Virus record (IMG/VR): IMGVR_UViG_3300031757_000704
Coordinates: 1 to 23,113 of that record
DNA length: 23,113 nt
Strand: one strand, 5' to 3'
Origin: a virus
Shown here: positions 2 to 18,500 of the stretch, one piece after another
Position numbering within the stretch: position 1 is the first letter of the stretch
How the letters are laid out: every line of letters begins with the position of its first letter
Notes under the pieces: model-generated
What the model saw: only the letters and a program-made list of their open reading frames with translations
The model's database searches: none
What the model was told of the DNA's origin: nothing
Position numbers and translations under genes: made by a program

Positions 2-3000
2 ATTCCTGCTGAAGATTGGACAATTCCTTCTGAGCACTTTAGTGTAAACGTTGAGAAGTTCGGTGGACAAATTGGTACTAGACTTGAAGATAAATTGTAT
101 ACAGTTTCTTGGTTGAATGCTGATGTACGATTGGCACTAGGTGCAATTCCTGCAGATACAACACTAGACTTCCTCAATCACCTTAGAGTTCTTCCTATTG
201 AGGAGTTTCCACCTTCAAGAACTGAATTATCAATTGTTGATAACTTGGAAAGGGTAACAGATGGTCGTATGATTACCTGTGACCTTTGGGAGCTTGGTGT
301 ATACAAAGCAATGCGCAGAACTCTTGATTATATTGATTCGTATGTTGCTGAGTCAGAATATGCTCCTGAGAAAACATATGAATACTTTGAATCTAATAGA
401 GAATCTGGTCGCATTCAAAATATTTATGGTAGGACAAATGATGTAATTGATTCAGTTCATATTGGAGCATTCGATGAAGAAGTAAGTCATAGGATTCACT
501 CTCATGGAGAAGAAGATGGATTTGCACCATTGGTTGAAACAGTATTAACAAAAGGACTTGCAATTCCTATTATGGATGTTGGTTCTGCTGCATTCCATGT
601 ACACTACTTTGACGATTCAGAAATTAAAAATCTAAATCGGCATGGTGTAGAAGTTTCTGCTAGAGGAATAACTCATGAGGAAGCAAGGGCACTAATCGAC
701 CGACAGGCATTTGAAATTCCTGAATTTTGTGCAAACCCACATACAACAGCATTCTTACCAGAAGCAACAGGACATCAACATCACTTTGTTAAAGGACAAG
801 TGGTTGACGTACAACGAGGAAGACTTGCAGATCCTCTGTCAAGAGAACAAGCAAGAGAATTAATTGATGGAAACATTTCTTCAGTCACCCTTTATGATAA
901 TCTAGGGTATAACACGAACGGTGTTCCAGAAACAGACGCGAATGGTATTGTAGAAGGTGGGACAACTGCTGCAAACGGTGACATAATTTCTGGTCACTAT
1001 CACGAATATGCCGTCACATATGATGTTGATTGGGAAACTCATACTGATTTTCAAGGAAATGATTTAACTCATGGATTTGTTTATACACCAGTTGCAACTT
1101 GGATATGTTATAACTACCAACCAGAATTACACTTTGATGCAGCAGTTCTTGGTGGATTAGATTATGCTGGAAACACAAATTTACCATTAAACATATTTAA
1201 TACACTAGACGATGCAACGGTTGCAACGTTCTTGAGTGAACCATCATTCACCTTTCATCATCCTCAACTATGGAGTGATACACTAAACCCAAATGTTGAC
1301 TTTGTAGAATTGTATTCCTCAAATCATATTGCACAGGTTCCAGGTGTTGGTGGAACTGGAGACTTAATTGGTCTTGACGAATTAACGGTAGACACGGATA
1401 TAGTTGAGATGCAACCATTCCCTGCAAACGTACAAGCGGATACGATGGGTATCGTCAATCAGTCTGGCATCGTCCAGTTAATGAACGAGAACACTGGAGT
1501 AAAAACAACGTTTTGTGACTTCACGTCATTGCAACACGTAATTGGAATTGGTCCATTCGGTAATTATGATGAACGAGGAGCACTAGGATTAACGTTCCAC
1601 CCCGATTATCTTACTAACGGTAAATTCTATCTATTATATATGACCGAACAAGGTGGTGGTACTGGTTCATTTGGATATCCTTTATCTTCTACAGTTGTTT
1701 CTGAATTTGTTGCTGATACAAATAGGTTGGAATGTACTGATTTATCAACAGAAAGAAACTTACTTACTGTTCCACAACCAGACATGAACCATAACGGTGG
1801 TCAATTAAGATTTGGGCCAGATGGATATCTTTATATCGGTATGGGAGATGGTGGTAACGCAGGAGATACTTCTGCTAGTTCAGGTCACGGTGGACACGGT
1901 GACTATGGTAATGCTCAAAATCCAACAAACCTTTTAGGTGCAATTTTAAGAATTGATGTTACTGAAGATACAGTTAACAACGTACCATATACTATTCCTA
2001 TAGACAATCCATTTATAACTCATAATTATAAAGCAGGAACTATTGACGAAGAACCTTATGCCCCAGAAATATATTGTATGGGTCTTAGAAATCCTTGGAA
2101 GTTCTCCTTCGCTATTAATGGAGATTTGTGGTGTGCTGATGTTGGACAAAACAAATTTGAAGAAATAAACATTATTGAAGCAGGTGGTAACTATGGTTGG
2201 AGAGTGATGGAAGCATATCATTACTACGAAGAAGACCAAGCAATCATCGACCAAATCGCAATAGACCTTGGGTATGCTACAACTCAAGCATATCTATCAG
2301 ACTTAAAGGCACCAATACATGAATATACTCATGGAACTGGAATATCAATCCTTGGTGGATTTGTTTATAGAGGTTCTATTCCTGAATTGGATGGTAAGTA
2401 TATATTCGGTGATTGGAGTTCATCTTGGGCAGGAGATACTGGACATCTTTATAGTTTAACTGAAAACTTTGACGGCAACTCCGCAGACTTTAATATATTA
2501 GCAAATACAAGTGGGTCTCCAATTGCTGACCACGGACACACATTCTCGTTGACTGGTGCACAAGTCACATACTTAAAAGCAAATCCTGGTTCACCAGTTA
2601 CAACTGTTCAAACAGATACTACACACGCTGCATTTTATACTCATACGTTTACTGTAATATGGAGTTCAGCAACTGCTGAATTCTTCGTCATCGGTCAGAC
2701 TAATCCTGAAGGTCATGATGATTTGAATTTCCTTGGATACCAATCTGCTTTAACTTATGATAGAACCCCACTGTCGGTTTGGGATCCAGTAACAGAGATT
2801 GTAAATTTAACCACTATGGATAAGTCTGTATTGACTTTGGGTGAAACGAATGATGGTGAAATACTACTTGCGACTCGTCTAGGAATTAATACTTTCCAAG
2901 GCACAGGTCCAGACAATACAACAATTTATAAAATAGATGCTGCATATGATTCTTCTGGTATATCATCTTCAATACCTCAGATTCCTTCATCAGAAACTGG

Positions 3001-5542
3001 TCACGTTCATGGGTATAAAGTAACGTATGACGAAGTTAACTTATTCCAAACGGTAGAAGTTTCTGATATTGAGATGACCGAATGGGATGCTTTCTGGCCA
3101 GACTGGACTTGGAACGACCCAGTATCTCATGTACACTTGGTTAATACTGCATGGTCAGGGTTGACTGATTCACAAACACTACTTGGTTCTTCTGCTGGTT
3201 GGTATTATGATGCCGAATTAGAAACTTGGCAACCATATGATATTGGTGCGGATACACCATGGGCACCACCTGCTGAAGATGATACACAGTACACGCAAAT
3301 AACATCTAGTCCAGTTGTTAATATTTTAGGTGCAAATGAATATGGAGAAAACACACATATTCATTACTTTGATTCTTCAGTTCTAGATACTTTTGGTGCC
3401 AATGCGGGCAGATTAGCAACTCCATTAACAAGACTTGATGCAGAGTTGCTTGCAAACAATCTACTTACTGAAGTTATTATATACTCTTCTATAGCAAACA
3501 GTGGAACGCATTTACATTATCATAAATTTAAGGTGTTGTGGAGCCCAACCACTCAACAATTCCTGGCCCAAGACGTTGGAGAATTCAGAGACCTGTCGGG
3601 CACTGGTGAATGGACACAGATTGATGAGGTTTTAAAGAACCACGAACATACATTAACTGTTGATGGTATTACAACCAACTTGGGTTGGAATGGTACTCCA
3701 TTATATACTGCACCTGATATTACTTTAGCACTTGCTCATGATTGGGATAACTTTGAGGGAGATGACCCAGACCATCTACACGCCTTCAACGGAACTGTAT
3801 TAGACACAATCGGTGTCAATGCTGGTAGACTTGCTGACGCACTAACGGATGAGCAAACAACAGACTTAATTAACGGCGACCTTGACGAAGTAATGATTTA
3901 TTCTTCAATTGCCAATGGAGACCATTATCACGGAGTCAAAGTAACATACGATGACTTGACTCTTGCTTTCGTTGCAGTAGATGAAGAACAATGGTCTTCA
4001 TCTGACGGAGCTACCTTTTTACCCGAATCACCAAGAACGCATGCGCACACGACATTGGTTTCTAATCAAACTTCTATATTAGGGTTTAATCAAGTATTGT
4101 TATCAAATGATTTACCAGACTTTGCATCTCCAGGTTATCCTTATCCTGGTGGTACTCACCCACACTTCCATAACAATACTGTTGTTGGTCCATTTGCGTG
4201 GAATAATGAAATCGACTATGCAGATGGATTATCAGTATCAGAAGCAATGCAACTTATTAATAATGATGTTGATTTTGTCACGGTTTATGATTCTATTGAG
4301 GGTGCTCACTTTCACGACTATAAAGTAAAATATAATCAAACAACTAACGTGTTCTGGTGTGATGGTTCTACAACTTGGATTAGGGGTGGTATTGAAGATA
4401 TTTATCAAGACACTTCAAAATATTATCCTTCTACTGTACATAACCCATCGGAAGGTCTGCATTGGCACAACCTTACATGTTATTGGAATCCAGATGGTCT
4501 AACAACACCCCAACAAACTGGTGGTATTGTTTATGTAACACAAGTTGTTGTTACACCAGAGGTATTAACTTCTCAACCACAAACGACTGTTACAACCTCA
4601 AGTGTTCCATTAAATCCTGTATCGACTACCTATAACGATACACCGAATGTTGGAGACACTACTGTAATTACAGTGTATTCCGATAATGTAACAACAACCA
4701 CAACGGTTTCAACAACGGTAGTTACAACAATAACAACTGTAACTCATTATTCAGATGGTACAGACAATACTGTTGTCGGGAATCCAGTAACTACTCAAGA
4801 GACAGAAGTAACTACTTCAACTGCTGTGGTCGAAGATGTTGATGCACGACAAACCGAAATTAATAATGTTCTACAGGCAAACTATGCCCCAATTATTTGG
4901 ATTCAAGGAACGTTTATTGATGGTGAAGGAACGCATGACCACTTACTATATACTGGATGTACTCTTGATACTGCAGGAACATATTCAGGTAGAATGTGTG
5001 AACCAATAACACTTACTCAAGCAAATGATTTAATTAATGCTCAGAACGTAAACACTGGAATAGTTTTCTATGATTCCCCTAATGGTGCACTGTCTCACTA
5101 CCACGGATACACATTGAAGTTCAATCCTAATATTGGAACCGAAGGTTCGTTTGTTTGTGATGCCTTGAATCAATTTAACCAAATTCCTGGAACTGGAACA
5201 ACTATTCACAAGTTCTTATTGACTGGTGGTTTCCACCAACATGATTATTGGATTACTGTTGCACAATATGCATCACTTGTTTCAGGAACAAGTATTACAA
5301 CCTCTCAACGGGATACTATTCACGCAACGTTATATACTCACGATGTGACTATTGAATACAGTTCTGGAACATATAATATGACTAATCAAACGAGTGATGT
5401 GGACGGACACAACTTAATTTCATATACTGGGTCTTTGGCAAGTGGTGGTGAGTGGATTATTAGCACTCAGGGTTCTGGTCTTGGTGATCATATCCATACT
5501 ACAGTGATTGATGAGTCTAATATATGGCCGACTAGCATTTAA
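2..5542 (+). CDS. Giant baseplate-associated protein with HxH repeats and an embedded PQQ-type sugar dehydrogenase domain (5' partial)
   Basis: The reading frame is open from the left edge, so the N-terminus lies outside the window; the TTG at 95 is only an internal Leu codon. At least 1846 codons are visible. The first ~150 residues match nothing I recognise. Then come HxH-rich repeat units, a glucose/sorbosone dehydrogenase (GSDH) beta-propeller (about 1380-2945), more HxH units (about 3000-4500), a Thr/Val-rich linker (about 4510-4850) and two last HxH units. I count 22 HxH motifs. No signal peptide or membrane segment is visible. The gene directly precedes gp8, where T4 carries g7 (baseplate wedge), so it may be a hugely expanded gp7-like wedge protein or a fibre attached to the wedge. 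That assignment rests on position only. That it is a virion protein is well supported by context; the enzymatic role of the propeller is inferred. Confidence 0.85.
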   Translation: MPAEDWTIPSEHFSVNVEKFGGQIGTRLEDKLYTVSWLNADVRLALGAIPADTTLDFLNHLRVLPIEEFPPSRTELSIVDNLERVTDGRMITCDLWELGVYKAMRRTLDYIDSYVAESEYAPEKTYEYFESNRESGRIQNIYGRTNDVIDSVHIGAFDEEVSHRIHSHGEEDGFAPLVETVLTKGLAIPIMDVGSAAFHVHYFDDSEIKNLNRHGVEVSARGITHEEARALIDRQAFEIPEFCANPHTTAFLPEATGHQHHFVKGQVVDVQRGRLADPLSREQARELIDGNISSVTLYDNLGYNTNGVPETDANGIVEGGTTAANGDIISGHYHEYAVTYDVDWETHTDFQGNDLTHGFVYTPVATWICYNYQPELHFDAAVLGGLDYAGNTNLPLNIFNTLDDATVATFLSEPSFTFHHPQLWSDTLNPNVDFVELYSSNHIAQVPGVGGTGDLIGLDELTVDTDIVEMQPFPANVQADTMGIVNQSGIVQLMNENTGVKTTFCDFTSLQHVIGIGPFGNYDERGALGLTFHPDYLTNGKFYLLYMTEQGGGTGSFGYPLSSTVVSEFVADTNRLECTDLSTERNLLTVPQPDMNHNGGQLRFGPDGYLYIGMGDGGNAGDTSASSGHGGHGDYGNAQNPTNLLGAILRIDVTEDTVNNVPYTIPIDNPFITHNYKAGTIDEEPYAPEIYCMGLRNPWKFSFAINGDLWCADVGQNKFEEINIIEAGGNYGWRVMEAYHYYEEDQAIIDQIAIDLGYATTQAYLSDLKAPIHEYTHGTGISILGGFVYRGSIPELDGKYIFGDWSSSWAGDTGHLYSLTENFDGNSADFNILANTSGSPIADHGHTFSLTGAQVTYLKANPGSPVTTVQTDTTHAAFYTHTFTVIWSSATAEFFVIGQTNPEGHDDLNFLGYQSALTYDRTPLSVWDPVTEIVNLTTMDKSVLTLGETNDGEILLATRLGINTFQGTGPDNTTIYKIDAAYDSSGISSSIPQIPSSETGHVHGYKVTYDEVNLFQTVEVSDIEMTEWDAFWPDWTWNDPVSHVHLVNTAWSGLTDSQTLLGSSAGWYYDAELETWQPYDIGADTPWAPPAEDDTQYTQITSSPVVNILGANEYGENTHIHYFDSSVLDTFGANAGRLATPLTRLDAELLANNLLTEVIIYSSIANSGTHLHYHKFKVLWSPTTQQFLAQDVGEFRDLSGTGEWTQIDEVLKNHEHTLTVDGITTNLGWNGTPLYTAPDITLALAHDWDNFEGDDPDHLHAFNGTVLDTIGVNAGRLADALTDEQTTDLINGDLDEVMIYSSIANGDHYHGVKVTYDDLTLAFVAVDEEQWSSSDGATFLPESPRTHAHTTLVSNQTSILGFNQVLLSNDLPDFASPGYPYPGGTHPHFHNNTVVGPFAWNNEIDYADGLSVSEAMQLINNDVDFVTVYDSIEGAHFHDYKVKYNQTTNVFWCDGSTTWIRGGIEDIYQDTSKYYPSTVHNPSEGLHWHNLTCYWNPDGLTTPQQTGGIVYVTQVVVTPEVLTSQPQTTVTTSSVPLNPVSTTYNDTPNVGDTTVITVYSDNVTTTTTVSTTVVTTITTVTHYSDGTDNTVVGNPVTTQETEVTTSTAVVEDVDARQTEINNVLQANYAPIIWIQGTFIDGEGTHDHLLYTGCTLDTAGTYSGRMCEPITLTQANDLINAQNVNTGIVFYDSPNGALSHYHGYTLKFNPNIGTEGSFVCDALNQFNQIPGTGTTIHKFLLTGGFHQHDYWITVAQYASLVSGTSITTSQRDTIHATLYTHDVTIEYSSGTYNMTNQTSDVDGHNLISYTGSLASGGEWIISTQGSGLGDHIHTTVIDESNIWPTSI
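560..1045 (+). repeat. HxH type-A repeats, first two copies
   Basis: Two diverged copies of a module of roughly 90-130 residues. It begins with an HxHxF-like segment (HVHYF, HQHHF), continues with a helix-like stretch of the form GRLADPLSREQARELI, and closes with HYHEYAVTYD. The first copy is degenerate and lacks the closing HYH. The later copies in the same protein share the order HxH, GRL, helix, (V/I)xxYDS, HYH. Copies are recognisable in protein but clearly diverged in DNA, so they are old duplications. Confidence 0.7.
1380..2945 (+). other. Glucose/sorbosone dehydrogenase (GSDH, PQQ-dependent type) beta-propeller domain
   Basis: Several family hallmarks appear in the right order: ERGALGLTFHPDY, then NHNGGQLRFGPDGYLYIGMG, GNAQNPTNLLGAILRIDV, APEIYCMGLRNPWKFSF, GDLWCADVGQNKFEEIN, GGNYGW, PIHEYTHGTGISILGGFVYR and a closing blade ending in TIYKID. 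The family (soluble glucose dehydrogenase, aldose sugar dehydrogenase YliI, HHIP-like proteins) is a six-bladed propeller; active members oxidise sugars with PQQ and calcium. The His of NHNGG (codon at 1790) matches the catalytic His144 of soluble glucose dehydrogenase, and the Arg-Asn of GLRNPW (2087-2092) matches Arg228-Asn229. I do not see clear equivalents of Arg406/Arg408. The fold is near certain; activity is open. The last blade is split by an HxH module. Confidence 0.93.
2522..2743 (+). repeat. HxH type-B module inserted in the last propeller blade
   Basis: About 74 residues starting near DHGHTFSLTGAQ, with the signature HxHTF...T.AQ...L...VTT.QTD..HA..YTH.FTV.W and ending TNPEGHDDL. 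The GSDH propeller reads on after it (TLGETNDGEILLAT ... TIYKID), so the module interrupts the blade. The closest relative in the window is at about 18106-18330, which shares the TNPEGHD ending, YTHxFTV and QTD...HA. Confidence 0.82.
3000..4500 (+). repeat. HxH type-A repeat array, three copies plus partial units
   Basis: Three successive units with the pattern HxH-F, LDT.G.NAGRLA..LT, a helix, V.IYSSIAN, then HYH and a strand: HIHYF (about 3358) to HYHKFKV, HLHAF (about 3774) to HYHGVKV, HPHFH (about 4159) to HFHDYKV. Between units lies a linker of the form (E/A)HTxxV...LG(W/F)N. The spacing between the second and third linkers is about 400 bases. Partial units flank the array (HVHGYKV near 3003, HVHLV near 3130, HWHNL near 4461). 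Paired HxH motifs look suited to metal binding, but no ion can be named from sequence. Confidence 0.75.
4510..4850 (+). other. Thr/Val-rich low-complexity linker
   Basis: About 110 residues dominated by Thr, Val and Ser, with runs such as VTTTTTVSTTVVTTITTVT and short echoes of YSDxxxxT. It separates the main HxH array from the C-terminal HxH units. Such segments usually form extended, flexible or beta-rich stalks; no enzymatic motif is present. Confidence 0.6.
4900..5440 (+). repeat. C-terminal HxH units (one type A, one type B)
   Basis: A sixth type-A unit runs from HDHLLYTGCTLDTAGTYSGR to HYHGYTLKFN (about 4920-5180). A type-B unit follows directly from about 5222 (HQHDYWITVAQYASL ... QRDTIHATLYTHDVTIEY ... 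TSDVDGHNL). A final HIH motif lies at about 5492-5500, 14 codons before the stop. The type-B unit aligns with those at 2522-2743 and 18106-18330. Confidence 0.75.
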
Positions 5543-5628: not shown

Positions 5629-6642
5629 ATGGGTGCTATTGTAACCAGCAAATTCAGAACACAAAACTTGATGGTATTCATTGACCAGTTTAAGACAACT
5701 GGTAACGTGGCTACTGACAATTATCTATACCTCGGATTCGGACGTAGTGATGCATGGCCCGACGATGCTCAAGGCAACAATGAATCTTCAGGTCAATTTA
5801 CACTTCCAGATCCATTAGACGAAGATGAAGCACAATATTGGGTGGATATCGTTGGTGCGAAACGTATCCAGAACGATGACATCTCCCCTGTGCTACCTCG
5901 TGTGGACTGGGCAAACGGTGATGCACTTGCCTTTGATGGTGATACCGCAAATGGTATCGTCGGCATTGCAGAGCCTGGACGATCATTCGTATCAAAAACG
6001 GGATACCATTCTATTGTAATGAATTCAGAATATCGTGTTTACCAATGTGTTGGTGAACCCGCTTCTGGTAAATGTTACGTTGCTGGTACTTACGACGGTG
6101 GAACAGCAAGTTCACGTGCACTTTGTGCGGCAACAACTGGTGGACTTTGGTTGCCGACTGGTGCCTCTGAAGAGCCTGTTGGAAAAACAGGTGACTCTGC
6201 AGGTTTAGTTGCACAGGACATCAGTACGTCTGACAACTATGTTTGGAAATTCTTGTATAAACTAGAATTGAACGACATTATTAACTCAACAACGAATGAC
6301 TGGATGCCAGTTATTACAGGTGCTGCAGTACTTGCGGGATCTGAGCAGATGGATTTTGGTGACGAACTTGCAATCTTTACCGCAAAATGTCATCACGGAC
6401 TAATTCACGTTCGATTAGAAACTTCTGATGGTTTCCCTGAAAATGACGACTTCCGTCAAATCGGATTACTTCGTAACCCAGAACTGACGGGCGGTGGTAC
6501 ACGTGCTCAGGGTTCTGTATATGCCACTGCTGATACGCAGATGGAAGGTGATTCTGGACAGTTAATCTATTTAGAGAATAGACGTGCGATTACTCGTGCA
6601 TCTGACCAGATTGAAGATTTGAAACTTGTAGTTGAATTCTAA
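5629..6642 (+). CDS. 8: Baseplate wedge protein gp8
   Basis: 337 residues, almost the same length as T4 gp8 (334). gp8 is a dimeric subunit of the six baseplate wedges and acts in the virion. Conserved segments recalled from T4 gp8 line up in order: AIVTSKFRT near the N-terminus, FGRSDAWP, PRVDW, YRVYQC, a Cys pair followed by Trp (C149, C166, W174), DNYVWKFLYKL, FRQIGLLRNP, SGQLIYLENR and a C-terminal DQIEDLKLVVEF. The start is supported by AGGAG at 5616-5620, 8 bases before ATG. It follows two tandem late-promoter boxes and precedes the DUF4815 gene by 83 bases. This is the most certain identification in the window and fixes the phage as T4-like. Confidence 0.96.
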   Translation: MGAIVTSKFRTQNLMVFIDQFKTTGNVATDNYLYLGFGRSDAWPDDAQGNNESSGQFTLPDPLDEDEAQYWVDIVGAKRIQNDDISPVLPRVDWANGDALAFDGDTANGIVGIAEPGRSFVSKTGYHSIVMNSEYRVYQCVGEPASGKCYVAGTYDGGTASSRALCAATTGGLWLPTGASEEPVGKTGDSAGLVAQDISTSDNYVWKFLYKLELNDIINSTTNDWMPVITGAAVLAGSEQMDFGDELAIFTAKCHHGLIHVRLETSDGFPENDDFRQIGLLRNPELTGGGTRAQGSVYATADTQMEGDSGQLIYLENRRAITRASDQIEDLKLVVEF

Positions 6643-6701
6643 ATCTGTAATAGACTTTTATTGGGTGGTCTATATGGAGCACCTTTAACGATTTATTTGT
6701 G

Positions 6702-6717
6702 TAGGATAGGATAGGAT
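6702..6717 (+). repeat. TAGGA triplet repeat in the leader of the DUF4815 gene
   Basis: TAGGATAGGATAGGAT is three tandem TAGGA units just upstream of the ATG at 6726. It offers several overlapping AGGA ribosome-binding cores, the nearest about 10 bases from the start. The rest of the 83-base gap (6643-6725) shows no late-promoter box and only a weak hairpin at 6650-6673. Confidence 0.5.
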
Positions 6718-6725
6718 TTAAAACA

Positions 6726-9700
6726 ATGGGTTACAACTTTAATACAGCACCATATTACGATGATTACGATGCAGACAATAGATTCTTAAGGATACTATTT
6801 AATCCTGGTCGTGCAGTACAGGCACGTGAGTTAACGCAAGCACAATCAATACTACAAAATCAAGTATCTTCTGGTGCAGATCACATATGGAAGAACGGTT
6901 CTAACGTATTAGGTGGTGTAGTATCAATTAACCATAGAAACTACATGCAGCTTGCAGCTGTTGATGCTACTTGGTTAAACAGAGTTGTATATGGTCAAAC
7001 ATCTAATGCAGTTGGTATTATTGAACAATTACATGACGACCAAACTCAACCAGTCTATTATTTCAGAATTCTTTCTGGTTCATTCTCCTCAACAGAAGAC
7101 TTAGAAACCTATGATACGGTGTGTAATGGTGGAGTAGACGGTTCTGGAAATTGTTTAGACAACACTTGGTACGATGCAGCTCTTACTCACAAAGCAGGTG
7201 CTATTGTTGGTGTTGGAAAGGCACTAGAAGCAAAGGTTGGTAATGGAATATATTGGATTGATGGTTTCTTTACTCCAGTTCTTGCTCAAACGATTTTCTT
7301 AGACTATACTTCTGCCACTCCAACCACTAGAGTTGGTTTTGACATTGAAGAGTCAATAATTTCATCAACGACAGACCCAAGTCTATTAGACCCTGCATCT
7401 GGTTTCTATAACCAGAATGCTCCTGGTGCAGACAGGTATCAAACATCATTAATTCTTACAAAAGAAGCAGATTCTGCTGAAGCAAATACATGGTTGTGGT
7501 TGATGGATGTTGCTCAAGGTGCTGTCACCACAAAATACGAGTCAACAGATTACTCATTACTTTCAAACGAGATAGCAAGACGTACTGCTGACGAATCGGG
7601 AAACTATACACTAAACCCATTTCCTTTAGAATTAAAAGATAATGCAAACGCAGATAAATACACTGTTAAAATAGAACCTTCAAAAGCATACATCAGTGGT
7701 TACGAACACGAACTATTAGTTCCTGTTGAAGTTGAAGCAGAAAGGGCACGTTCTACACGTGCAGTTTCAAATGACCATGTTGTTCCAGACTTTGGTCCAT
7801 ACTTTGAAGTTGAAGATGAGAATGATTTCCAAGGTGTGTTTGACGTATTTCATAAAGAATACGTTATATTTGTAACAAACTCAAACTATACAACTGCAAT
7901 TGCAACTCCAGACACTATCGGCATTGCAAAACGTATTACTCACGTGACTATGATTGGAACGTCATTTAGGATTTATTTGGAAAATGATGAAGGGTTGGAC
8001 GCTATTTCTCCTGCACGATATATAGTTTCACAATCAGATCCTGCAGTTTATGCTAAATTATATATTCCAACAGGAGTTGCTGTTAAGAAGGGTGTTAATC
8101 TACCATGGTTATATCCACTGTCAGAAGTAACTTCTTCTGTGACTTCTGGTCAGGTAACATTCTCAACTCAAAGAAACTATCAACAAACAATGACTGGTGG
8201 TTTAATGCAAGTTCCTTCTGCATTTACTAACTTACATTGGGAACGTGTTCTATACATATACAATGAAACATCAGGAAGCATGATTCCTAAGAACGGAACT
8301 GTTTCTTCTGGTGATACTTGGACTGCGGACTTATCAGGAAATACCCTTGCGACCATTGAAATAGTAGAACAATCAACTGGAACAATGTCTGGCAACTTAA
8401 ACGGAAACGTTCTTCATATAATGGCAGACATGTATATGTCCGATGCTATTTGGAGAACAATTACAAACTCTGAACAGACAGGTACGTTCACCCTTGCAGG
8501 TGAAGTATTAACTATTCCTCATGGTGTTCAAAGTATAGTTTCAGTAATTGCTCCTGATACAACAACTGTAACCGATTCATTTACCTTCGCATCTGGTGAT
8601 ACTGATACTACATATAAAGACGCAACATTAACTTGGACGGATACAATCAATTCCTCGCAACCTGGAACTTATTCTGTAACATATAATGTAAATACTTTCA
8701 GTGCTATTTCATCTGGAACATACTTTACGGTGAATTCAAGAACTGATTCGGGTGTTAATTATTCTGATATTGGTGTATACCAAGCAGACATTAATAAGGA
8801 AGTATACAGACTTGCAGACCATTTAGACTTCAGAACTTCTGATGAAGATTACTTAATTGGTACATATTTGCCATTACCTCAATCTAATATATCAGTTTCT
8901 CATGAATTTTATTTACCACGTAGAGATAGAGTAACAATAGATGACGATGGTATAATTACAATTAAGCAAGGATTCCCTTCAGAATTTCCAATTCTTTCTA
9001 CAGAATTAGATAATGAAATGACTCTTTATGAATTATATGTTCCGCCTTATACATACAATTCAAAGAATATTAAGGTCAAGCATGTTAAAAACAAACGTTA
9101 TACAATGCATGATATTCGAGGCATAGACGAAAGATTACATAGTCTAGAATATTATACTGCAATGAATTTGCTAGAGCAATCTACATCTGCAATGCAGGTG
9201 GTGGACACTGCTGGGTTACCACGTTATAAAAATGGAATATTAGTAGACGCATTCGTTGACCATGGAATTGGTGATATATCAAATCCTGAATATTATTGTT
9301 CTGTTTACCCAGAAGCAGGTATTCTGTTGTCACCTTTCACAATGACTGGACTGGACTTCGAACCTGGAGTTTCATCTGGGATGAGAAATAATAATTTAAC
9401 GTACACATTAGATTTTAATGTAGTTGAAGGGTGGATATCACAGGACAGTGCTTCTCGAGTAATTAACTTGAATCCATTCGCAAGAAAGTCATGGGTTGGG
9501 TTTGTAACCCTTTCCCCTTCTACAGACACATGGTTTGAAGAACTTTATGCCCCAGACGTTATTGTTCAAAACGGAAATAATAATGCCGTGACCCAAGCAA
9601 GAGTTGATTATGGAACACAAACAAGGTGGAATGCTTGGCAGACTGCTTGGAATGGTTGGGTAGACGTTGGTGGACAATCAAACGAAGCACCTGCAGAGAC

Positions 9701-12116
9701 CAGAGTCATTAGTCAAAACGATTGGCAATGGAATACTGGCACTTTTAGTACTCGAAGACAAGGTATAACAAGACAACGTACAGTTTGGAGAACTCTTCAA
9801 ACAACTGCAGCTTCTTGGGACCAAGGGCAACAAGAACAAACAGGGCAAATTAGATCTGGTGAAAGAAGTTGGATACAAACCAATGATATCAGAACAGAAA
9901 TGAGTGATTTGATTATTGATACTTCTGCTATCGAATGGATGCGTCCTAAAGAAGTAACGATTTCTGCTCACAAATTAAAACCAACTACTCAGTTACATTT
10001 CAGGTTTGATGGCGATGATGTAGATAATTATATTACACCTGATGGTGGTACGATGGGCGACCCTGTTATAAGTGATGAATATGGAAGATTGGACGATTGT
10101 GTATTCTCCATTCCATCTGAAGGTCCAGACGGAGTTAGGTTTAGGACTGGTTCTAAACTTTTACAGGTTGCGGATTATTTTACAGCCGATATGACAACTC
10201 AAGGTAATGCCGTCTTTACTTCTGCAGGTAATTTACATACAAGAGAAAAAACAATACTTTCCACACTTCAAAACGTAACTGTTAATGAAGCATTGTCTGA
10301 AAATCGGACAATTGAAGGTGGAACAAGAACCGTTAGACGTGGTGGTGGTACAAATAATTTCAATCAATCAAGATCGGTAACTGAATGGTTCGATCCAGTA
10401 TCTGAATCTTTCCTAGTTGCTAACTCTGATGGCGGTGTATTTATTGATTCTATTGATGTTTACTTCTGGTCAAAAGACACAGAAGGTAGTCCAGTTCGTT
10501 GTGAAATTAGACCTATGGAAAATGGTTATCCTACTCCATCACCGATTCCTATGGCATCTAAAATGTTGTATCCTTCTGAAGTAGCAACTTCTGCAACAGG
10601 AACTGCAAATACTAGATTCCAATTCGCTGACCCAATTTATCTAATGAATAATACTGAATATTGCTTTGTTTTAATATCAGATTCATTGAATTATAACGTA
10701 TTCATATCCGAACTGGGTGAAAATGACCTTATTAGTGGTGACCGTATTGGTGAACAACCTTATCTTGGTTCTATGTTTACTTCGCAGAACAACACGACTT
10801 GGACTGCTGAACAGAATATGGATATTAAATTTAGAATAAACAAATGTGCTTTTGACACTGGTTCGGTTGGAACATTACAAATTGATATGCAAGGTTTTTC
10901 TGGAACTAAAGACATTACTTCTTTCACACCGAGTTTCTCGCCAATGGTGTTAGCAGGAACAAATATAGCATTTGAGGCAATTATTAATTCCGATACTAAT
11001 AATATATATGATGGATTAGTTGATAAAGAAGACGTGGTACTTGAGACACAGGTAACACTTATTGGTGCAAACACAATTGCTTCTGGTTATCAATATACTC
11101 CTATTTCATATATTGCTACATATTCGTCAACCAATGCTAATATTTCTCCAGTTCTTAATAAAGAGAGAATGAGCACGATTATACAAAACAACGTTATATA
11201 TGATACTGCTCCATTACCTAAAAATCAACAAGGAATTTATGTTTCCAAGTTTGTACAATTAGCAAATCCAGGTGAAGATTTGCTTATGTGGTTATCAATA
11301 CAAGACGTTCCTAACACATATATTAAAGCATATTACGATACTGGTACAGTTATTCCAAGATATGTAGACATTAGGGCAAATGCTAATCTTGTTACACACG
11401 GTGACTTTAATGTTAACGACTATGAAGAAGAATATGCATGGATTTATCCTACTGGCCAATGGTCACCAGAAAATATTGTTACGTCGCAACAGGCACAGCA
11501 ACATAACTGGAATGGTGTTATTGGTGCACTCGGTTCTAATTCAAGTCACGTTTCTACTGCATATGTAGATGGGGACGATGATCCATCTAATACAACTCGT
11601 ATGCATCTTGTAGACATCAGCGATATGAACGCTATTGTTCAGGATTGTTATATTTCTAAATATGACCTTGATGGTGTTTCGCATGATATAACTTCTTCTG
11701 GTAATGGTACTGACATATCAAACTATGAAGTCGGTGATATTTGGTTCGGTGTTTATGATAATGATTTGGATAGACAATTCTGGAGAAAGATACTATTACC
11801 TGACGGTACATTTGCCAAAGAAGCAGTTCCAGTATTGCCAATTGATTCATTAGTAGACTCAAACCACCCTCAGTATGCAGCAGATCTTGCTGTTATTGAA
11901 GAATCAGCAGTGACTTGGAGAGAATTCAAAGATTCTGGTGTTGCAATTAGCAATAATGTCATATCTACTAATATGGAATTTGTTGAACATACATTCAAAC
12001 CTTTGAAGAAAGTGGTTGATGAATTTGACTCTTTTAGGGTTAAACTTGAATTGCATACAACAAACCCATGTTATTTGCCTGCGGTTAGAGAAATGCGTGT
12101 ACTGGCAATGACATAA
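6726..12116 (+). CDS. DUF4815-type large virion structural protein
   Basis: 1796 residues. The N-terminus (NFNTAPYYDDYD, FNPGRAVQARELTQAQSILQ, ADHIWKNGSNVLGG) is the typical start of the DUF4815 virion protein of marine T4-like phages, and that region ends near YRLADHLDFRT (about residue 700). Later come a Trp-rich stretch (about 960-1050), a conserved WMRPKEVTISAHKLKPTT...FDG segment (about 1071), and a tail-protein segment running from DPVSESF (about 1223) through SKDTEGSPVRCEIRPMENGYP to QPYLGSMFTSQN. The C-terminal third is less recognisable. Immediately after gp8, T4 has g9 and g10 (tail-fibre socket and wedge pin), so it probably occupies the gp9/gp10 role connecting baseplate to fibres; this is inferred from position. 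A small Cys-Cys-Trp motif (C133, C143, W148) interrupts the N-terminal domain. No HxH motifs. Confidence 0.9.
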   Translation: MGYNFNTAPYYDDYDADNRFLRILFNPGRAVQARELTQAQSILQNQVSSGADHIWKNGSNVLGGVVSINHRNYMQLAAVDATWLNRVVYGQTSNAVGIIEQLHDDQTQPVYYFRILSGSFSSTEDLETYDTVCNGGVDGSGNCLDNTWYDAALTHKAGAIVGVGKALEAKVGNGIYWIDGFFTPVLAQTIFLDYTSATPTTRVGFDIEESIISSTTDPSLLDPASGFYNQNAPGADRYQTSLILTKEADSAEANTWLWLMDVAQGAVTTKYESTDYSLLSNEIARRTADESGNYTLNPFPLELKDNANADKYTVKIEPSKAYISGYEHELLVPVEVEAERARSTRAVSNDHVVPDFGPYFEVEDENDFQGVFDVFHKEYVIFVTNSNYTTAIATPDTIGIAKRITHVTMIGTSFRIYLENDEGLDAISPARYIVSQSDPAVYAKLYIPTGVAVKKGVNLPWLYPLSEVTSSVTSGQVTFSTQRNYQQTMTGGLMQVPSAFTNLHWERVLYIYNETSGSMIPKNGTVSSGDTWTADLSGNTLATIEIVEQSTGTMSGNLNGNVLHIMADMYMSDAIWRTITNSEQTGTFTLAGEVLTIPHGVQSIVSVIAPDTTTVTDSFTFASGDTDTTYKDATLTWTDTINSSQPGTYSVTYNVNTFSAISSGTYFTVNSRTDSGVNYSDIGVYQADINKEVYRLADHLDFRTSDEDYLIGTYLPLPQSNISVSHEFYLPRRDRVTIDDDGIITIKQGFPSEFPILSTELDNEMTLYELYVPPYTYNSKNIKVKHVKNKRYTMHDIRGIDERLHSLEYYTAMNLLEQSTSAMQVVDTAGLPRYKNGILVDAFVDHGIGDISNPEYYCSVYPEAGILLSPFTMTGLDFEPGVSSGMRNNNLTYTLDFNVVEGWISQDSASRVINLNPFARKSWVGFVTLSPSTDTWFEELYAPDVIVQNGNNNAVTQARVDYGTQTRWNAWQTAWNGWVDVGGQSNEAPAETRVISQNDWQWNTGTFSTRRQGITRQRTVWRTLQTTAASWDQGQQEQTGQIRSGERSWIQTNDIRTEMSDLIIDTSAIEWMRPKEVTISAHKLKPTTQLHFRFDGDDVDNYITPDGGTMGDPVISDEYGRLDDCVFSIPSEGPDGVRFRTGSKLLQVADYFTADMTTQGNAVFTSAGNLHTREKTILSTLQNVTVNEALSENRTIEGGTRTVRRGGGTNNFNQSRSVTEWFDPVSESFLVANSDGGVFIDSIDVYFWSKDTEGSPVRCEIRPMENGYPTPSPIPMASKMLYPSEVATSATGTANTRFQFADPIYLMNNTEYCFVLISDSLNYNVFISELGENDLISGDRIGEQPYLGSMFTSQNNTTWTAEQNMDIKFRINKCAFDTGSVGTLQIDMQGFSGTKDITSFTPSFSPMVLAGTNIAFEAIINSDTNNIYDGLVDKEDVVLETQVTLIGANTIASGYQYTPISYIATYSSTNANISPVLNKERMSTIIQNNVIYDTAPLPKNQQGIYVSKFVQLANPGEDLLMWLSIQDVPNTYIKAYYDTGTVIPRYVDIRANANLVTHGDFNVNDYEEEYAWIYPTGQWSPENIVTSQQAQQHNWNGVIGALGSNSSHVSTAYVDGDDDPSNTTRMHLVDISDMNAIVQDCYISKYDLDGVSHDITSSGNGTDISNYEVGDIWFGVYDNDLDRQFWRKILLPDGTFAKEAVPVLPIDSLVDSNHPQYAADLAVIEESAVTWREFKDSGVAISNNVISTNMEFVEHTFKPLKKVVDEFDSFRVKLELHTTNPCYLPAVREMRVLAMT

Positions 12117-12130
12117 GAGGAGATAATGGA

Positions 12131-12337
12131 ATGGCAATAGAACAACGATATACAAAAGACCCACTGACTGGTGCAGTAGTATTTACTGATACTGATGGGT
12201 ATGCAGCACGAAAGAAAGTCCTTGAAAACCAAAAAACTACTACCTTAACAGCAGAACATTCTAAAAAAGTTATAAATAGTTTAAGAAATGAAGTTTCCGA
12301 ATTAAAGAAATTAGTGCAGGGATTAATAGATGGCTAA
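12131..12337 (+). CDS. Small structural-region protein, 68 residues
   Basis: Short protein with a polar N-terminal half (RYTKDPLTGAVVFTDTDGYAAR) and a C-terminal heptad-like helix (EHSKKVINSLRNEVSELKKL) that could form a coiled coil. AGGAG at 12118-12122, overlapping the end of the previous gene region, stands 8 bases before the ATG and supports this start. It sits 14 bases after the DUF4815 gene and overlaps the next gene by 8 bases, so the two are probably translated together. I do not recognise a T4 counterpart; a small coiled-coil linker or assembly factor of the baseplate/fibre is a guess. Confidence 0.82.
   Translation: MAIEQRYTKDPLTGAVVFTDTDGYAARKKVLENQKTTTLTAEHSKKVINSLRNEVSELKKLVQGLIDG
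12271..12278 (+). promoter_or_regulatory. Possible internal late promoter
   Basis: Exact TATAAATA inside the 68-codon gene, 52 bases before the start at 12330. In frame it encodes part of VINS, so chance is possible. If real it would drive the 67-residue protein and the 2656-residue protein separately from the upstream genes. Confidence 0.4.
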
Positions 12338-12533
12338 CACCGATATAGGATTTACTCAAATTCCTTATGTAAGGAAAGACGATACGTTTAAAGAGTGGAG
12401 AGAACGTACTAACCTGATGATCCAACAGCAAAACAATTTCGTTCTGATGCAAGAGTTTGATATGCTTGGTGTTAGTGACCCATGGGTCAAAACATCAATG
12501 CAATTGAATTATCTAGGCGAAACGGAAACTTAA
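12330..12533 (+). CDS. Small structural-region protein, 67 residues
   Basis: Starts with ATG inside the previous gene (8-base overlap) and has AGGGA at 12318-12322 as ribosome-binding site. The sequence has a DDTFKEWRERTNLMI segment followed by a Gln/Asn-rich helix and VSDPWVKTSMQLNYLGE. From memory, a Dxx(F/L)xxWRxxxN segment is a common N-terminal element in fibre and neck proteins of marine T4-like phages, so this may be a stand-alone version of such an attachment element; that link is tentative. It ends 28 bases before the 2656-codon gene. No homologue named. Confidence 0.8.
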   Translation: MANTDIGFTQIPYVRKDDTFKEWRERTNLMIQQQNNFVLMQEFDMLGVSDPWVKTSMQLNYLGETET

Positions 12534-12561
12534 CAATAATATTTAAGGAAAGGCACAGAGC

Positions 12562-15500
12562 ATGGCACACTACACTGGACATACATTTACTTTAACGGAG
12601 CTCAACACGATTGAGCAACAAAAGTCTGATTTCTTAGATTCTTTAAATATTAAACTCGCTTCTCCTGATTTACTTGTTAAGGATATGGCATTGATGTTAA
12701 AGTCTCTAGAAGTAATGGAGAATTTAGAGCATCTACCAGAATATAAAACCTTTATTCTTAATGTTGCGCAACGTTCGGCACAATTTGTTAATCCTACAGA
12801 ATTAATTACAAACGGTGGGTTTGATGTTACATATAACACTGCCAACCTTGTACAAAACTCAGACTTCGGCACAGATGCTTTTGAAGTAGAATTAGTTAAA
12901 AACTCAGGTTTTGATACACCAGTTGATTTAGCACGTCCATGGGCAAACGGTATTGCATATCTATTTGATATTTTCACTACTGAAGGCACAAAAGTTATTA
13001 GAGCATACTCAGACGGACTACAAACAGCAGTAGCATGGTTTGAGACACAACTAAAACCAAATACTCAATATAAATTCGCATATGACTTAGATGTTGCAGC
13101 TGTTAACTGGGATCTATCCAGCGGTGGTTTCAACATGGTTGATATTCCTTCAGTAGACGAGACAATCTTCTCAGAAACTGGTGGTGGTCCTGTTGCGCAG
13201 ACAATCGTAATTTCTATCATTGAGGATGGAGATTTAGTTCTTCCTACTTGTGATGGCACAATTGTTCCATGGGATGATACTGTAGATTATAACCTTGCAC
13301 TTGCTGCAATGGAAGCAACTTGTAAAGCAAACGATGCTGTATGGAATTGGTCTCCACCGAACTCTGCATTCTATTGTGATGTTGGTGCTGGTTATCCTGG
13401 AGATGGAAGTGCGACTGAAGCGATTTGTTATGCAAATAACGCAGTTTGGGATGAAGGTGCTCTAACAGACCCACTTACACAAGAACACACAATTGTACCT
13501 TATCACGTTGAAGCACGTGAAGGTGATACTCTTGTTTTCACAAACCCAGTTGGTAATTATCTAGTACACAATGCTGTATCAGATGATAATATATCCTTTG
13601 CTTCTCCTGACTTAAATCCTGGAGACGTTTGGAATTGGGTTGTAGACGGTTATCATGACGTATACTTCCATTGTACATTCCACCCTCTAGAAGAAGGTCG
13701 AATGACAACTAAAACTAATCATAGATATGTTTATAACGTAGACCACGGACTAAACCCAGGCGATACTGTTAAGATACCAATCAACTATGGTTCAATGGTT
13801 GCATTGCCTTCGTTATCAACTTCATACTTTATTAACTTATTGCTACCTAATCAAATGGAAACGACTGGTGGTGCTCCATATACTTCTGTAGAATCGCTTT
13901 ACCATGATTTATCAATCAGTAACGTAGTTACAATGCAGTCTGGTGCAGTTGAAACTAATCCAAATGCTGGTGTTCCAATGACTGTTGCCTTCACTGGTGG
14001 GGTTGACGCAAACACCATTCCTGCTACTGCTGAGGCAATTGTTGCTGCAGGAACAGTTAGTCAACTAAACCTAACAGCGAATGGTCAAAACTATACTACC
14101 GCACCAACAATATATATCACTGGTGGTGGCGGTGCTGGTGCAACTGGCACATTAGAATTTAACGGATCGGTGACATCTGCAACAGTATCTGATGCTGGTG
14201 CTGGTTATGGATCGGTTCCAACTGTACAAATCTCGGCACCTGATGTTGCTAGACTTGGTCCAGCATCTTTTTGTACTGATCCAGCATATACTACACAATC
14301 ATCATGTGTTGCTGCAACTGAAACTTGGTATGAAGAAATACCAACCGTTCAAGCAGAAGCAACCGTTTCGTTATCAGGATCGGCACTTGACCAAATATCA
14401 ATGACTAATGTGGGATCTGGTTATCACTCTCCTCCTACAATTACTTTCCTTGGTGGTTCACCAACGGTTGCTGGAGCCGCAACTTCTGAAATTGATGGTA
14501 CGATCTATTCTGTAACACTTACTGCTGGTGGTTCTGGTTATGGATCTGGTGACGGTTCCGTACCTGTTGGCGAAAGACAATGGGAAGAATACTTAATTAC
14601 TGCCGTTGCTAAAGGTGATGAGAGGGTTGACGTATTCTTTGATGATGCAAACGCAATTGGACACGTTCATACTGCAACGATTACTCCTGCTGAATGGGTA
14701 TTGATTCAAGGAAGTACTGCTACAATGATTGTAACAGATACTGATGATACTGGACACACCCATACTGCTACATTCGATTGGGATGCTGCATTAAACAACG
14801 GCGCAGGAGGAATGTATCTAGTTGGAATGACAGGCGGACATACGCATGGTATAGACGAATATTTTGAACTTACTGGTGGAACAAAAGTAGAACTCGTTAA
14901 CTTCGGTCACTATCACGAAATCTTAATTTCTGAAGTAGATGAAGCAACCCTTAAAGCAAGTGTTCTGACGGGCACTTCACAAGATCCAGACGGAACTTGG
15001 AGTGCTACAGGCGGTGCCACATTAATCAGAACTTCTGACCACGGTACTTCAGACCCACAGCATTTCCACACTGTTGAATTTGGTTGTTTAGATGCTGCAA
15101 ACGATATTTATTTAATTATTGAAATTGACCAGCATATTCATGACATGGGTCGTGTTTGGTATCCTGGTTCAAACCAATTCACAGTAGGTAAATATGACTT
15201 TGCTGCTGGTGGTGATGATTTAAACCCATCTTCCATCGCCTTAGCATTTGCAGACCTTAACGGTTATGTTAAGAAAGAAAAAGGAATTGAATCTGATTCT
15301 CATGGACTGATTCCTGGAGATCGTGTTCACTTTGAAAACGTATACAACGGAATTCACCATGGTAACACAAACTATTATGTTGATTATGTTGTCGATGCAG
15401 ACAACTTTGTACTCACAGAAACAGTTGTTTATCCATTAGGAAGTGCTGCAGGTACTACACCTACAGTTCACAATGTAATTGAAGAATACACTGTCACTGC

Positions 15501-18500
15501 GGACTTGGCATCATATAGGTTCCAAGTTGAACGTGATATAACCAACCACGTCGGTGACGCTACTGCAGGAACTGGTGTACAAATTGAATGGTCAAGACCA
15601 ACAACTGTTAAGTCTGTTGGTCACGGTTTAACTGTTGGTGATATAGTTCAATTACCTTCTGGTGCTCAACCTTACACCCCATCTGAACTTCCTGGTGCTT
15701 TTGTAGACCATACAGTTACTGCATTGGGTGATGGTTATGGACCAACTGATAATATGGAAATTACAGTTGATACAAATACTACAGTCACATGGGCAGATCC
15801 AAATATCACTACTGTTGAGGGTGCTCAAGACTCTCCATGGTTGTGGTCATGGTGGGACCATAGTGCTGCTTCATATTATCCTTATCAAATTGCTGGTGCA
15901 ACCCATGACAACTTTGGTGGTAATGACGGAACTAATGGTGGATTTGACTTATATCGTGGTGGTACATACAAATTTATAAACAATGCATGGAGTCCTTCTG
16001 GACATATAACATTAGTCGATCCAGTTACTGGTCTCGACCAACCATTGTATATGCACGCTGCAGGAATTAAAGCAATACTTGGTGCAGGTTGGGACAACCT
16101 TGTTACTGCTGGTTTTGCTGATAATGACGGTAATAACTGTGTTTCAATGCGAGCAAATCATGGTCTTACAATAACTGCTGGTGACCATAACGACTTTGTG
16201 AACCTTGAAGAAGAGCCAGGTACTTGGGTTGGACCAGAAGTATTCCCAGAATGTACTGCTCTAGCTGGGTGGTGTGAAGAAATTGATGTTGGTGGTTGGT
16301 ACTACAATGGTGAAGATGATGAGGCAACTTGTCTTGCGTTGAACCCAACGGAAGACCCTGGACTCGCTCAATGGAGAGGACCACAATTTATTGGTAACTT
16401 TGCTAAAGAATTTACTTGGCATGTTCCTGAAGACTTCGGACTAACTGGTTCGGACGGTAATTCTGGATATGGACCATTCAATGCTCCTGGTCAATACAAT
16501 GGTGCATACCATGTAACTCATGATGGTGGACTATATCGTTTCGATAAATCAGGAATGATTGAAGGAACGAACCGTACAATTAATTTATATCGTGGTGGTA
16601 CTTACAGATTTAAGATTAACTCTGCAGGACACCCAATATACATTACAACAGATGATGGTTCCCACTTTACTCCTGGTGCTTACTTTGGTGAGTATCTATT
16701 AGGTGTTCAAAACTCTCGTGCTGAAGAAGGTCCAGGTGTTCAATCTGAAGGTCCAGCTGAAGATTTGTGGGGTTATGATGATTCTGGTGTAGCAAAATAC
16801 GAAATATTGGAATGGACTGTACCTGAAGTGTCACCAAACACAATGTATTATCAATGTGGTTGGCATGCTTCTATGATGGGCACGTTTAATATTCTAGACT
16901 TGCCAGTAGTTAATGCTGGTGAGAACGTTGTGGTTTACTTCCACCACGGACAGGATAATATGTACACTCCATTGCATATTAGAGATAAAATTCTTGTTGA
17001 TAATGGAACGTCTGACGACTACTTCCAAGTTCTACCAATTCCTGCGAATCCTTTCCCAGTACCTGGAACTCAAGCAGACTTACTAGGAACTAACAATGCC
17101 TTGACCGCAACTGGTCCTGGTGACATTCCTTACATTCAGGCAATGAATATTGAATTAGGAACTGTTTCTTATATTGACCCATTACAAATGATTCCTGGTA
17201 TTGGTTCTGAGCAATTCCTTGTAACAAATTCTGTCGGTGGTCTTGCTAAAGTTTACTTTAGTGTTGATGTTGACAAACGTTCTGATATTACATTAGATAA
17301 TGTTACATTTAAAGAAGTTGTTTGGACAGAGACAGGATCTTGGTCTGTTAGTGGTGGTACTGCACATAACGAAACCACAGATGCTGCATATATTGAACAA
17401 ATAGTTTCTGGTTCATTAACTGCTGGAACTACTTATGAAGTCCAATATGATATTATAGAATCGTTTAAAGATAACTATGGTGCTGAGAATGGTTCAATAA
17501 CTACGGAATTACGTGGTGACACAGTAGTGTCTGGAACTGCTAATACTCTTGTTGGTCATTACACGGAAACATTAACTGCTCCTGTAAATACTACGTTGTT
17601 GAGATTAGTTAACACTGGACGAGGAAAGATTGACAATGTGTCAATCAGAGAACGTGTTACTGGTCAAAATGCATGGTCAATTGGCGAAGGTTGGAACACT
17701 GATGCTGCAAAAGCATACATCAATGGTTCAATCGCATCTTCCACTGAAGTTTCTCAAACTCTTGCTATAGACACAGGTAAACTTTATGAAGTTAAATACC
17801 TATTAGGTAATGTAGATGATGATAATAACGGCATGACTGGACGTATGCGTGTTGCATTAGGAACTAATCCTAACCAATTGATTTCTAACTGGAATTTTGA
17901 TATTGCCGACCCTGCATTGGTTAATTGGGTTAACTCGGATTCAAGTGTTTCTATAAATGGGGAACGTTTGTATTTCAACTCTTCAGTTGATGGTACTTCG
18001 ACTTACACATTATCTAATGCGTTGGTGAATGGTGTTAAATATGAAGTGACGTTTGATACTGATCTTCTGACTGAGAATATTCTTAACTTCACTGCTGGAC
18101 CAGGTCCAACTGGAACGCATAGTCACACCTTCCAAATGACTGAGGCACAAGGTCTATGGTTACAAGAATCAACTAATAACTCGTTAACGGTTACACAAAC
18201 AGACGGTTATCATGCTGAGACTTATACTCATGACTTTACAGTCAAATGGTTGAACATTGGTGGTACTGACCAATATACAATAACTGAACAGACAAATCCT
18301 GAAGGACATGATGAATTAGCATTAGTTTCTACTACTATTAATACTCCAACTGTTGATTTTATTATCAATGGAGTTACATTAGGAACTGTCAGTACATCAG
18401 GCATACATCATATTGACTTTACTGGACTTGCTTCTAATACTTTAATTTTAAAATTAAATGGTACTGGAGCTGTCAATTCTATTAAGTTAGTCGAAGAAAC

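Follow-up and report, generated by a model that had tools for sequence, protein, structure and literature searches.

Phage baseplates carry hydrolases, esterases and lectin-like domains. Carbohydrate-binding domains have also been reported in structural proteins of marine T4-like phages related to those described here (PMC7029224). Among proteins with the six-bladed propeller of soluble glucose dehydrogenase (sGDH), HHIP is a non-enzymatic binder, which binds Hedgehog via a loop inserted in its propeller and also binds heparin (PMC8660895). In viruses, a paper on mangrove samples dealt with genes of the PQQ-dependent AA12 pyranose dehydrogenases as auxiliary metabolic genes only, and in the literature on phage sorbosone dehydrogenase and on PQQ in virions or among auxiliary metabolic genes we found no description of such a baseplate fusion. 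Within the reach of this search, no earlier account was found of a domain with the PQQ sugar dehydrogenase fold as a fixed baseplate component throughout a phage lineage.

The window analysed here is a stretch of viral DNA of 23,113 bases. Its first ORF (2-5542, plus strand; 1846 aa, open at the 5' end) corresponds to the C-terminal ~1846 aa of a giant gp7-position baseplate protein, the 5' end of which lies outside the window. A GSDH-type six-bladed propeller, including an inserted module, occupies positions 1391-2956 of the same strand (ORF residues 464-985), as delimited by PF07995, an AF2 model and fold matches. PF07995 (GSDH) is the sole Pfam family in this ORF; it matches residues 521-803 (nt 1562-2410) with 98 bits against a cut-off of 25 (E=8.4e-28), far beyond chance, and scores 106-122 bits in eight of nine large related contigs. 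An independent phmmer search against the PDB returned HHIP at the top (E=2.6e-23), followed by soluble quinoprotein glucose dehydrogenase (E ~7e-12) and aldose sugar dehydrogenases, and HHIP was also matched by a profile search (E=2e-30). The claim of the initial annotation that a GSDH-type propeller is built in frame into a giant baseplate-region protein is thus confirmed. The limits it gave, 1380-2945, are off by no more than a few bases, although reading from base 1380 gives stops and the best limits in the frame of ORF 2-5542 are 1391-2956. Its description of the GSDH motifs as complete and in order holds only in part: of the 332 profile positions the Pfam match takes in 45-276, and an 82-residue His-x-His module splits the final part of the propeller.

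The giant ORF does adjoin gp8, as first proposed. ORF 5629-6642 (plus strand) matches PF09215 (Phage-Gp8, E=4.2e-31), phrog_977 and phrog_438, and is assigned as the gp8 baseplate wedge protein; a VrlC/DUF4815 baseplate protein lies at 6726-12116 on the same strand (PF16075, E=3.4e-59; tblastn matches to proteins annotated VrlC). Between VrlC and the giant protein that follows (ORF 12562-20532), two short ORFs that share 8 bases, 12131-12337 (68 aa) and 12330-12533 (67 aa), look like genes. A scan of IMG/VR with the propeller returned 22 contigs and a profile scan 11 more, making 33 contigs with the same fusion, and scans for more distant viral relatives returned the same contigs only. Wherever a contig reads on to gp8, the propeller is found in one ORF between gp6 and gp8. 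A pattern-based scan for gp7 relatives that read through to gp8 without a propeller found none, with 12 contigs stopping inside the repeat region. At loci uncut by a contig end, relatives of the giant protein are 2280-3088 aa long, with the exception of L019, where it is split after the propeller in overlapping frames (6206-11986 and 11934-14219); it is intact in the near-identical L020, and the split looks like a frameshift or a sequencing error.

Upstream of the giant protein in the complete relatives lies gp6 (PF21379, E=6e-25; phrog_219, E=8e-159). The giant protein itself has an N-terminus with matches to PF23786 Baseplate_wedge (30.5 and 33.4 bits vs a cut-off of 27) and phrog_17744 'baseplate wedge subunit' (E=2e-46). 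It is these relatives that provide the gp7 match, the window protein starting downstream of that N-terminus. By tblastn, the N-terminus finds Sinorhizobium phage and cyanophage P-SSM4 proteins that carry a baseplate wedge or gp7 annotation, and a gp7 profile run against the PDB matched no gp7 chain. The wedge-family matches suggest that the giant protein is a diverged gp7, yet in pelagic and cyano T4-like phages T4 gp7 is stated to be absent, with VrlC taking over its place (PMC7029224), so that 'gp7-position protein' is the safe name. Its gene position and gp7-like N-terminus lead us to infer that it is present in the virion.

Five large contigs contain gp23-type capsid genes and the lineage is therefore T4-like, its nearest gp6 matches, from Desulfovibrio phage 7757 and pelagiphage HTVC008M, reaching only 34-37%. 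When cultured phages were searched (INPHARED, tblastn), the propeller was found in none, the only matches being yliI-like genes in four Acinetobacter records; the propeller-bearing T4-like lineage is known only from environmental sequences. The INPHARED records named 'Acinetobacter phage MD-2021a' (CAKLQH020000008.1, CAKLQF020000012.1), with yliI-like aldose dehydrogenase genes, look bacterial in sequence.

A first AF2 model, built from 15 phage sequences, had a pLDDT of 64 and already matched HHIP and PQQ dehydrogenases with Z of 26-30. The second, built from 23 sequences including three bacterial ones, reached a pLDDT of 77.9 and a pTM of 0.79. In VIA-align 2 the top match was HHIP (7PGN; Z 37.1 over 336 residues, 2.6 A, 30% identity), followed by 7CGZ and 3A9G (both 34.3), E. 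coli Asd (2G8S, 33.8), 3DAS (32.5) and sGDH (1C9U, 30.2), with AA12 structures at 23-24 (best 24.4). A six-bladed sGDH-type fold of the phage domain is well supported as a prediction, because HHIP scores Z 37 and the PQQ glucose dehydrogenases and Asd score 30-34, compared with about 21 and below for the next families. By both sequence and fold, the nearest solved protein is the non-enzymatic HHIP and not sGDH or YliI, the two references suggested at the outset. Among predicted viral structures, Foldseek gave good matches only to GSDH proteins from metagenome viruses that resemble pithoviruses and marseilleviruses (E=3e-25 to 3e-14).

Residues were assigned after the sGDH reference sequence had been verified against the PDB, and all motifs named here lie on the plus strand. 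The YDERG motif (1565-1579) places Glu at the sGDH Gln76 position, as in 15/15 phage and 20/22 cellular sequences. In the NHNGG motif (1787-1801), ORF residue 597 is the equivalent of the catalytic His144 and is His in every phage (15/15) and cellular (22/22) sequence, while residues 696-697 in the RNPW motif (2087-2098) are the equivalents of Arg228-Asn229; the Arg is found in 15/15 phage and 22/22 cellular sequences, the Asn in 15/15 and 18/22. The Gly of the DVGQ motif (2138-2149) corresponds to Gly247, a calcium ligand, with Gln in place of Pro248. Overall, sGDH H144, D143, D163, R228-N229, G247, P248 and Q76 correspond to phage His, Asn, Asp, Arg-Asn, Gly, Gln and Glu, each in all 15 sequences. 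The HEYTHG loop (2318-2335), the second His of which is retained in 17 of the 22 cellular relatives, falls in the region of the sGDH substrate/PQQ residues Tyr343-Thr348, to which its residues are putative equivalents. The FGDW motif (2405-2416) lies at sGDH 374-376 and is followed by Ser where sGDH has Lys377. In a profile alignment (hhalign), Lys377, Arg406 and Arg408 become Ser, Ser and Leu in phage, the last blade being the least certain part of this alignment.

Both halves of the original reading of the pocket were borne out: the catalytic His and the Arg-Asn pair are kept, and equivalents of Arg406 and Arg408 are missing, with Lys377 gone as well. The further step, which took the missing arginines as an argument against catalysis, fares less well, since the absence is real but common to most bacterial relatives and so is by itself no sign of decay. 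The 22 distinct bacterial relatives, taken mostly from a sample of Verrucomicrobiota, the phylum of G011, have Gly, Val or Ala at the Lys377 position, Gly at that of Arg406 (Arg in 3/22), and Val or Ala at that of Arg408 (Lys in two and Arg in another two of the 22). In half of them (11/22) the ORF also contains haem or copper motifs, namely a CxxCH pair in nine and a cupredoxin ligand motif in two, and the cupredoxin of L056 was confirmed by PF00127 (E=3e-15). Because most of these relatives, including ones with haem or copper motifs, also lack the three residues, their loss, on the alignment, characterises the subfamily and does not mark out the phage copy as the dead one. The two CxxCH or cupredoxin ligand motif in 11 of the 22 further imply that this bacterial HHIP-like GSDH subfamily is probably redox-active even without equivalents of Lys377, Arg406 and Arg408. 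The cut-off of NCBIfam TIGR03606 is failed by the phage propeller (65.5 bits vs 434.6) and also by the bacterial proteins L056 and L057.

In a tree, all 15 propellers from phages group in a single clade (support 1.0) within the bacterial HHIP-like set, which points to a single capture of the propeller by the phage lineage. Distinct phage sequences are 59-94% identical to each other. Invariance among phages is concentrated at sites conserved in bacteria (53/73, compared with 81/268 other sites; p=1e-10). This shows that the ancestral pattern is still selected for, in a site test that cannot tell pocket from fold.

The His-x-His module (2516-2761, plus strand; 82 residues, 839-920) is inserted before the last strands of the propeller, at the same place in 15/15 aligned phage sequences, and is absent from the bacterial relatives. 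Compared with residues 1850-1925 of ORF 12562-20532 it shows 31/65 identities (shuffle Z 21.5), and it aligns more weakly with later modules in ORF 2-5542 and in ORF 20644-23112. A His-x-His module of ~70 residues thus recurs in three neighbouring virion-region proteins, with further copies at 5219-5446, at residues 698-770 and 1850-1925 of ORF 12562-20532 and at residues 545-620 of ORF 20644-23112. The copy tested matched no Pfam family, and the module is possibly a metal-binding unit. Cys-rich repeats of the form C-S-D-x-x-x...C...G-x-W occur at roughly residues 2260-2480 of ORF 12562-20532 and in the propeller region of L002, L015-L017 and L019, and sit at differing insertion places across several virion-region proteins. 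Two stretches of ORF 12562-20532, 13462-13731 and 16510-16914, have a cupredoxin look with possible type-1 copper ligands (His...Cys-x2-His...Met), with no support from Pfam or the PDB; we considered cupredoxin-like stretches of this ORF as an electron partner and rejected them for want of Pfam support. A weak cupredoxin-like match at 22732-22968 (PF13473, E=5e-4, below the cut-off) lacks the copper-ligand Cys.

Our preferred reading, held tentatively and at a little short of an even chance, is that the captured dehydrogenase propeller serves as a host-contact domain, the pocket of which is still under selection, probably for sugar binding. In an ancient single event, a bacterial HHIP-like GSDH domain would have entered the T4-like lineage and been fused behind the wedge core of the gp7-position protein. 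One module among many, the propeller would be displayed outward on the baseplate and touch the host envelope, and its central pocket would most likely hold a host-surface sugar, perhaps with calcium, without turnover. Binding is preferred over oxidation because the three grips on the PQQ carboxylates are gone, the phage protein encodes no electron carrier, and HHIP is a non-enzymatic binder of the same fold. At the places of Lys377, Arg406 and Arg408, moreover, no residue substitutes for them. Against this, exact retention of the His and of the Arg-Asn pair exceeds the needs of mere binding, and the known binder HHIP has lost Arg-Asn; the loops or the His-x-His modules, rather than the pocket, could also be what binds.

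Less probable, though a real contender, is an active quinoprotein-type oxidoreductase of the virion, which would take PQQ and calcium from outside, hold the scavenged PQQ by residues other than those of sGDH, oxidise a sugar of the host envelope or capsule at adsorption and pass the electrons to an outside acceptor. The equivalents of the catalytic His, Arg-Asn and calcium-ligand Gly are present in 15/15 phage sequences, and the 11 bacterial relatives with two CxxCH or a cupredoxin motif also lack Lys377, Arg406 and Arg408. Furthermore, the fungal AA12 enzyme CcPDH is PQQ-dependent despite missing several of the PQQ residues of sGDH (PMC4133262; PMC6881789). However, CcPDH itself retains an equivalent of Arg406 (Arg621), which the phage does not (PMC6881789), and the phage has none of the three basic residues by which sGDH holds the PQQ carboxylates. 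The cofactor would have to come from outside, a CxxCH or cupredoxin ligand motif was found in 0/20 phage giant proteins, leaving the phage protein without an electron carrier, and we found no characterised enzyme of the subfamily.

An unlikely alternative makes the propeller no more than a rigid spacer or a platform for assembly, where the conserved residues keep the fold and no function of the pocket is selected. Such a role would fit the build of the giant protein, a series of repeated modules, and the placing of the invariant motifs, which are found in the pocket but also in the family's blade core. The HHIP fold, however, outlives the loss of Arg-Asn, yet the phages never lose this pair, and the phage-invariant residues concentrate at sites conserved across the bacterial family. 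To all readings other than binding, oxidation and a spacer we give, taken together, a very small share of the probability. Bacterial genes can occur on marine viral contigs, but the reading of the propeller as a product of chimeric assembly, as bacterial contamination or as a free metabolic gene, the last already rejected in the initial annotation, is refuted and has practically no likelihood left, because one open frame carries the fusion, which recurs in 33 contigs with distinct sequences 59-94% identical, in the same gp6-gp8 setting, behind a gp7-type N-terminus and with the His-x-His module inside the propeller.

If the propeller is inactive, it would be a second case, after HHIP, of a propeller turned binder, here with the catalytic residues retained; should it be active, a phage tail would contain a redox enzyme. 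A further outcome is an uncharacterised subfamily of bacterial HHIP-like GSDH proteins without the textbook PQQ ligands and often with haem or copper motifs. These bacterial proteins (Verrucomicrobiota, Planctomycetota and Phycisphaerae; L056, L057, L142-L166) are 37-48% identical to the phage domain, share YDERG, NHNGG, RNP, DVGQ, GG-VYRG and FGD with it and, like it, lack equivalents of Lys377, Arg406 and Arg408; unlike it, they are cellular, half of them have cytochrome c or cupredoxin motifs, and they have no His-x-His insert. HHIP (7PGN, 7PGM, 2WFT, 3HO3), the closest solved relative by sequence and fold, retains DERG and H-GG and has propeller inserts, but His-Asp replaces Arg-Asn and EGF repeats stand behind its propeller, whereas the phage domain retains Arg-Asn, DVGQ and NYGW, sits in a baseplate protein and shows no EGF domain in Pfam scans. 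With sGDH and the aldose sugar dehydrogenases (1C9U, 2G8S, 3A9G, 7CGZ, 3DAS) it shares the predicted six-bladed fold, the catalytic His, Arg-Asn and the calcium Gly, and it differs from sGDH in Glu for Gln76, Gln for Pro248 and Ser/Ser/Leu for Lys377/Arg406/Arg408. The AA12 PQQ pyranose dehydrogenases (6JT5, 6H7T) likewise have six blades, the His, the Arg and the Asn, and neither they nor the phage have a Lys377 equivalent; unlike the phage, they have Arg621 (Arg406 of sGDH, Ser in phage), and they use Arg273 and His560 as PQQ ligands, for which no phage counterparts were identified. Finally, the GSDH proteins of giant viruses (Pithovirus LCPAC104 and LCPAC202, Marseillevirus LCMAC102) are viral and of the same fold, but belong to large DNA viruses of eukaryotes, lie outside phage baseplate proteins and are only 15-24% identical to the phage domain.
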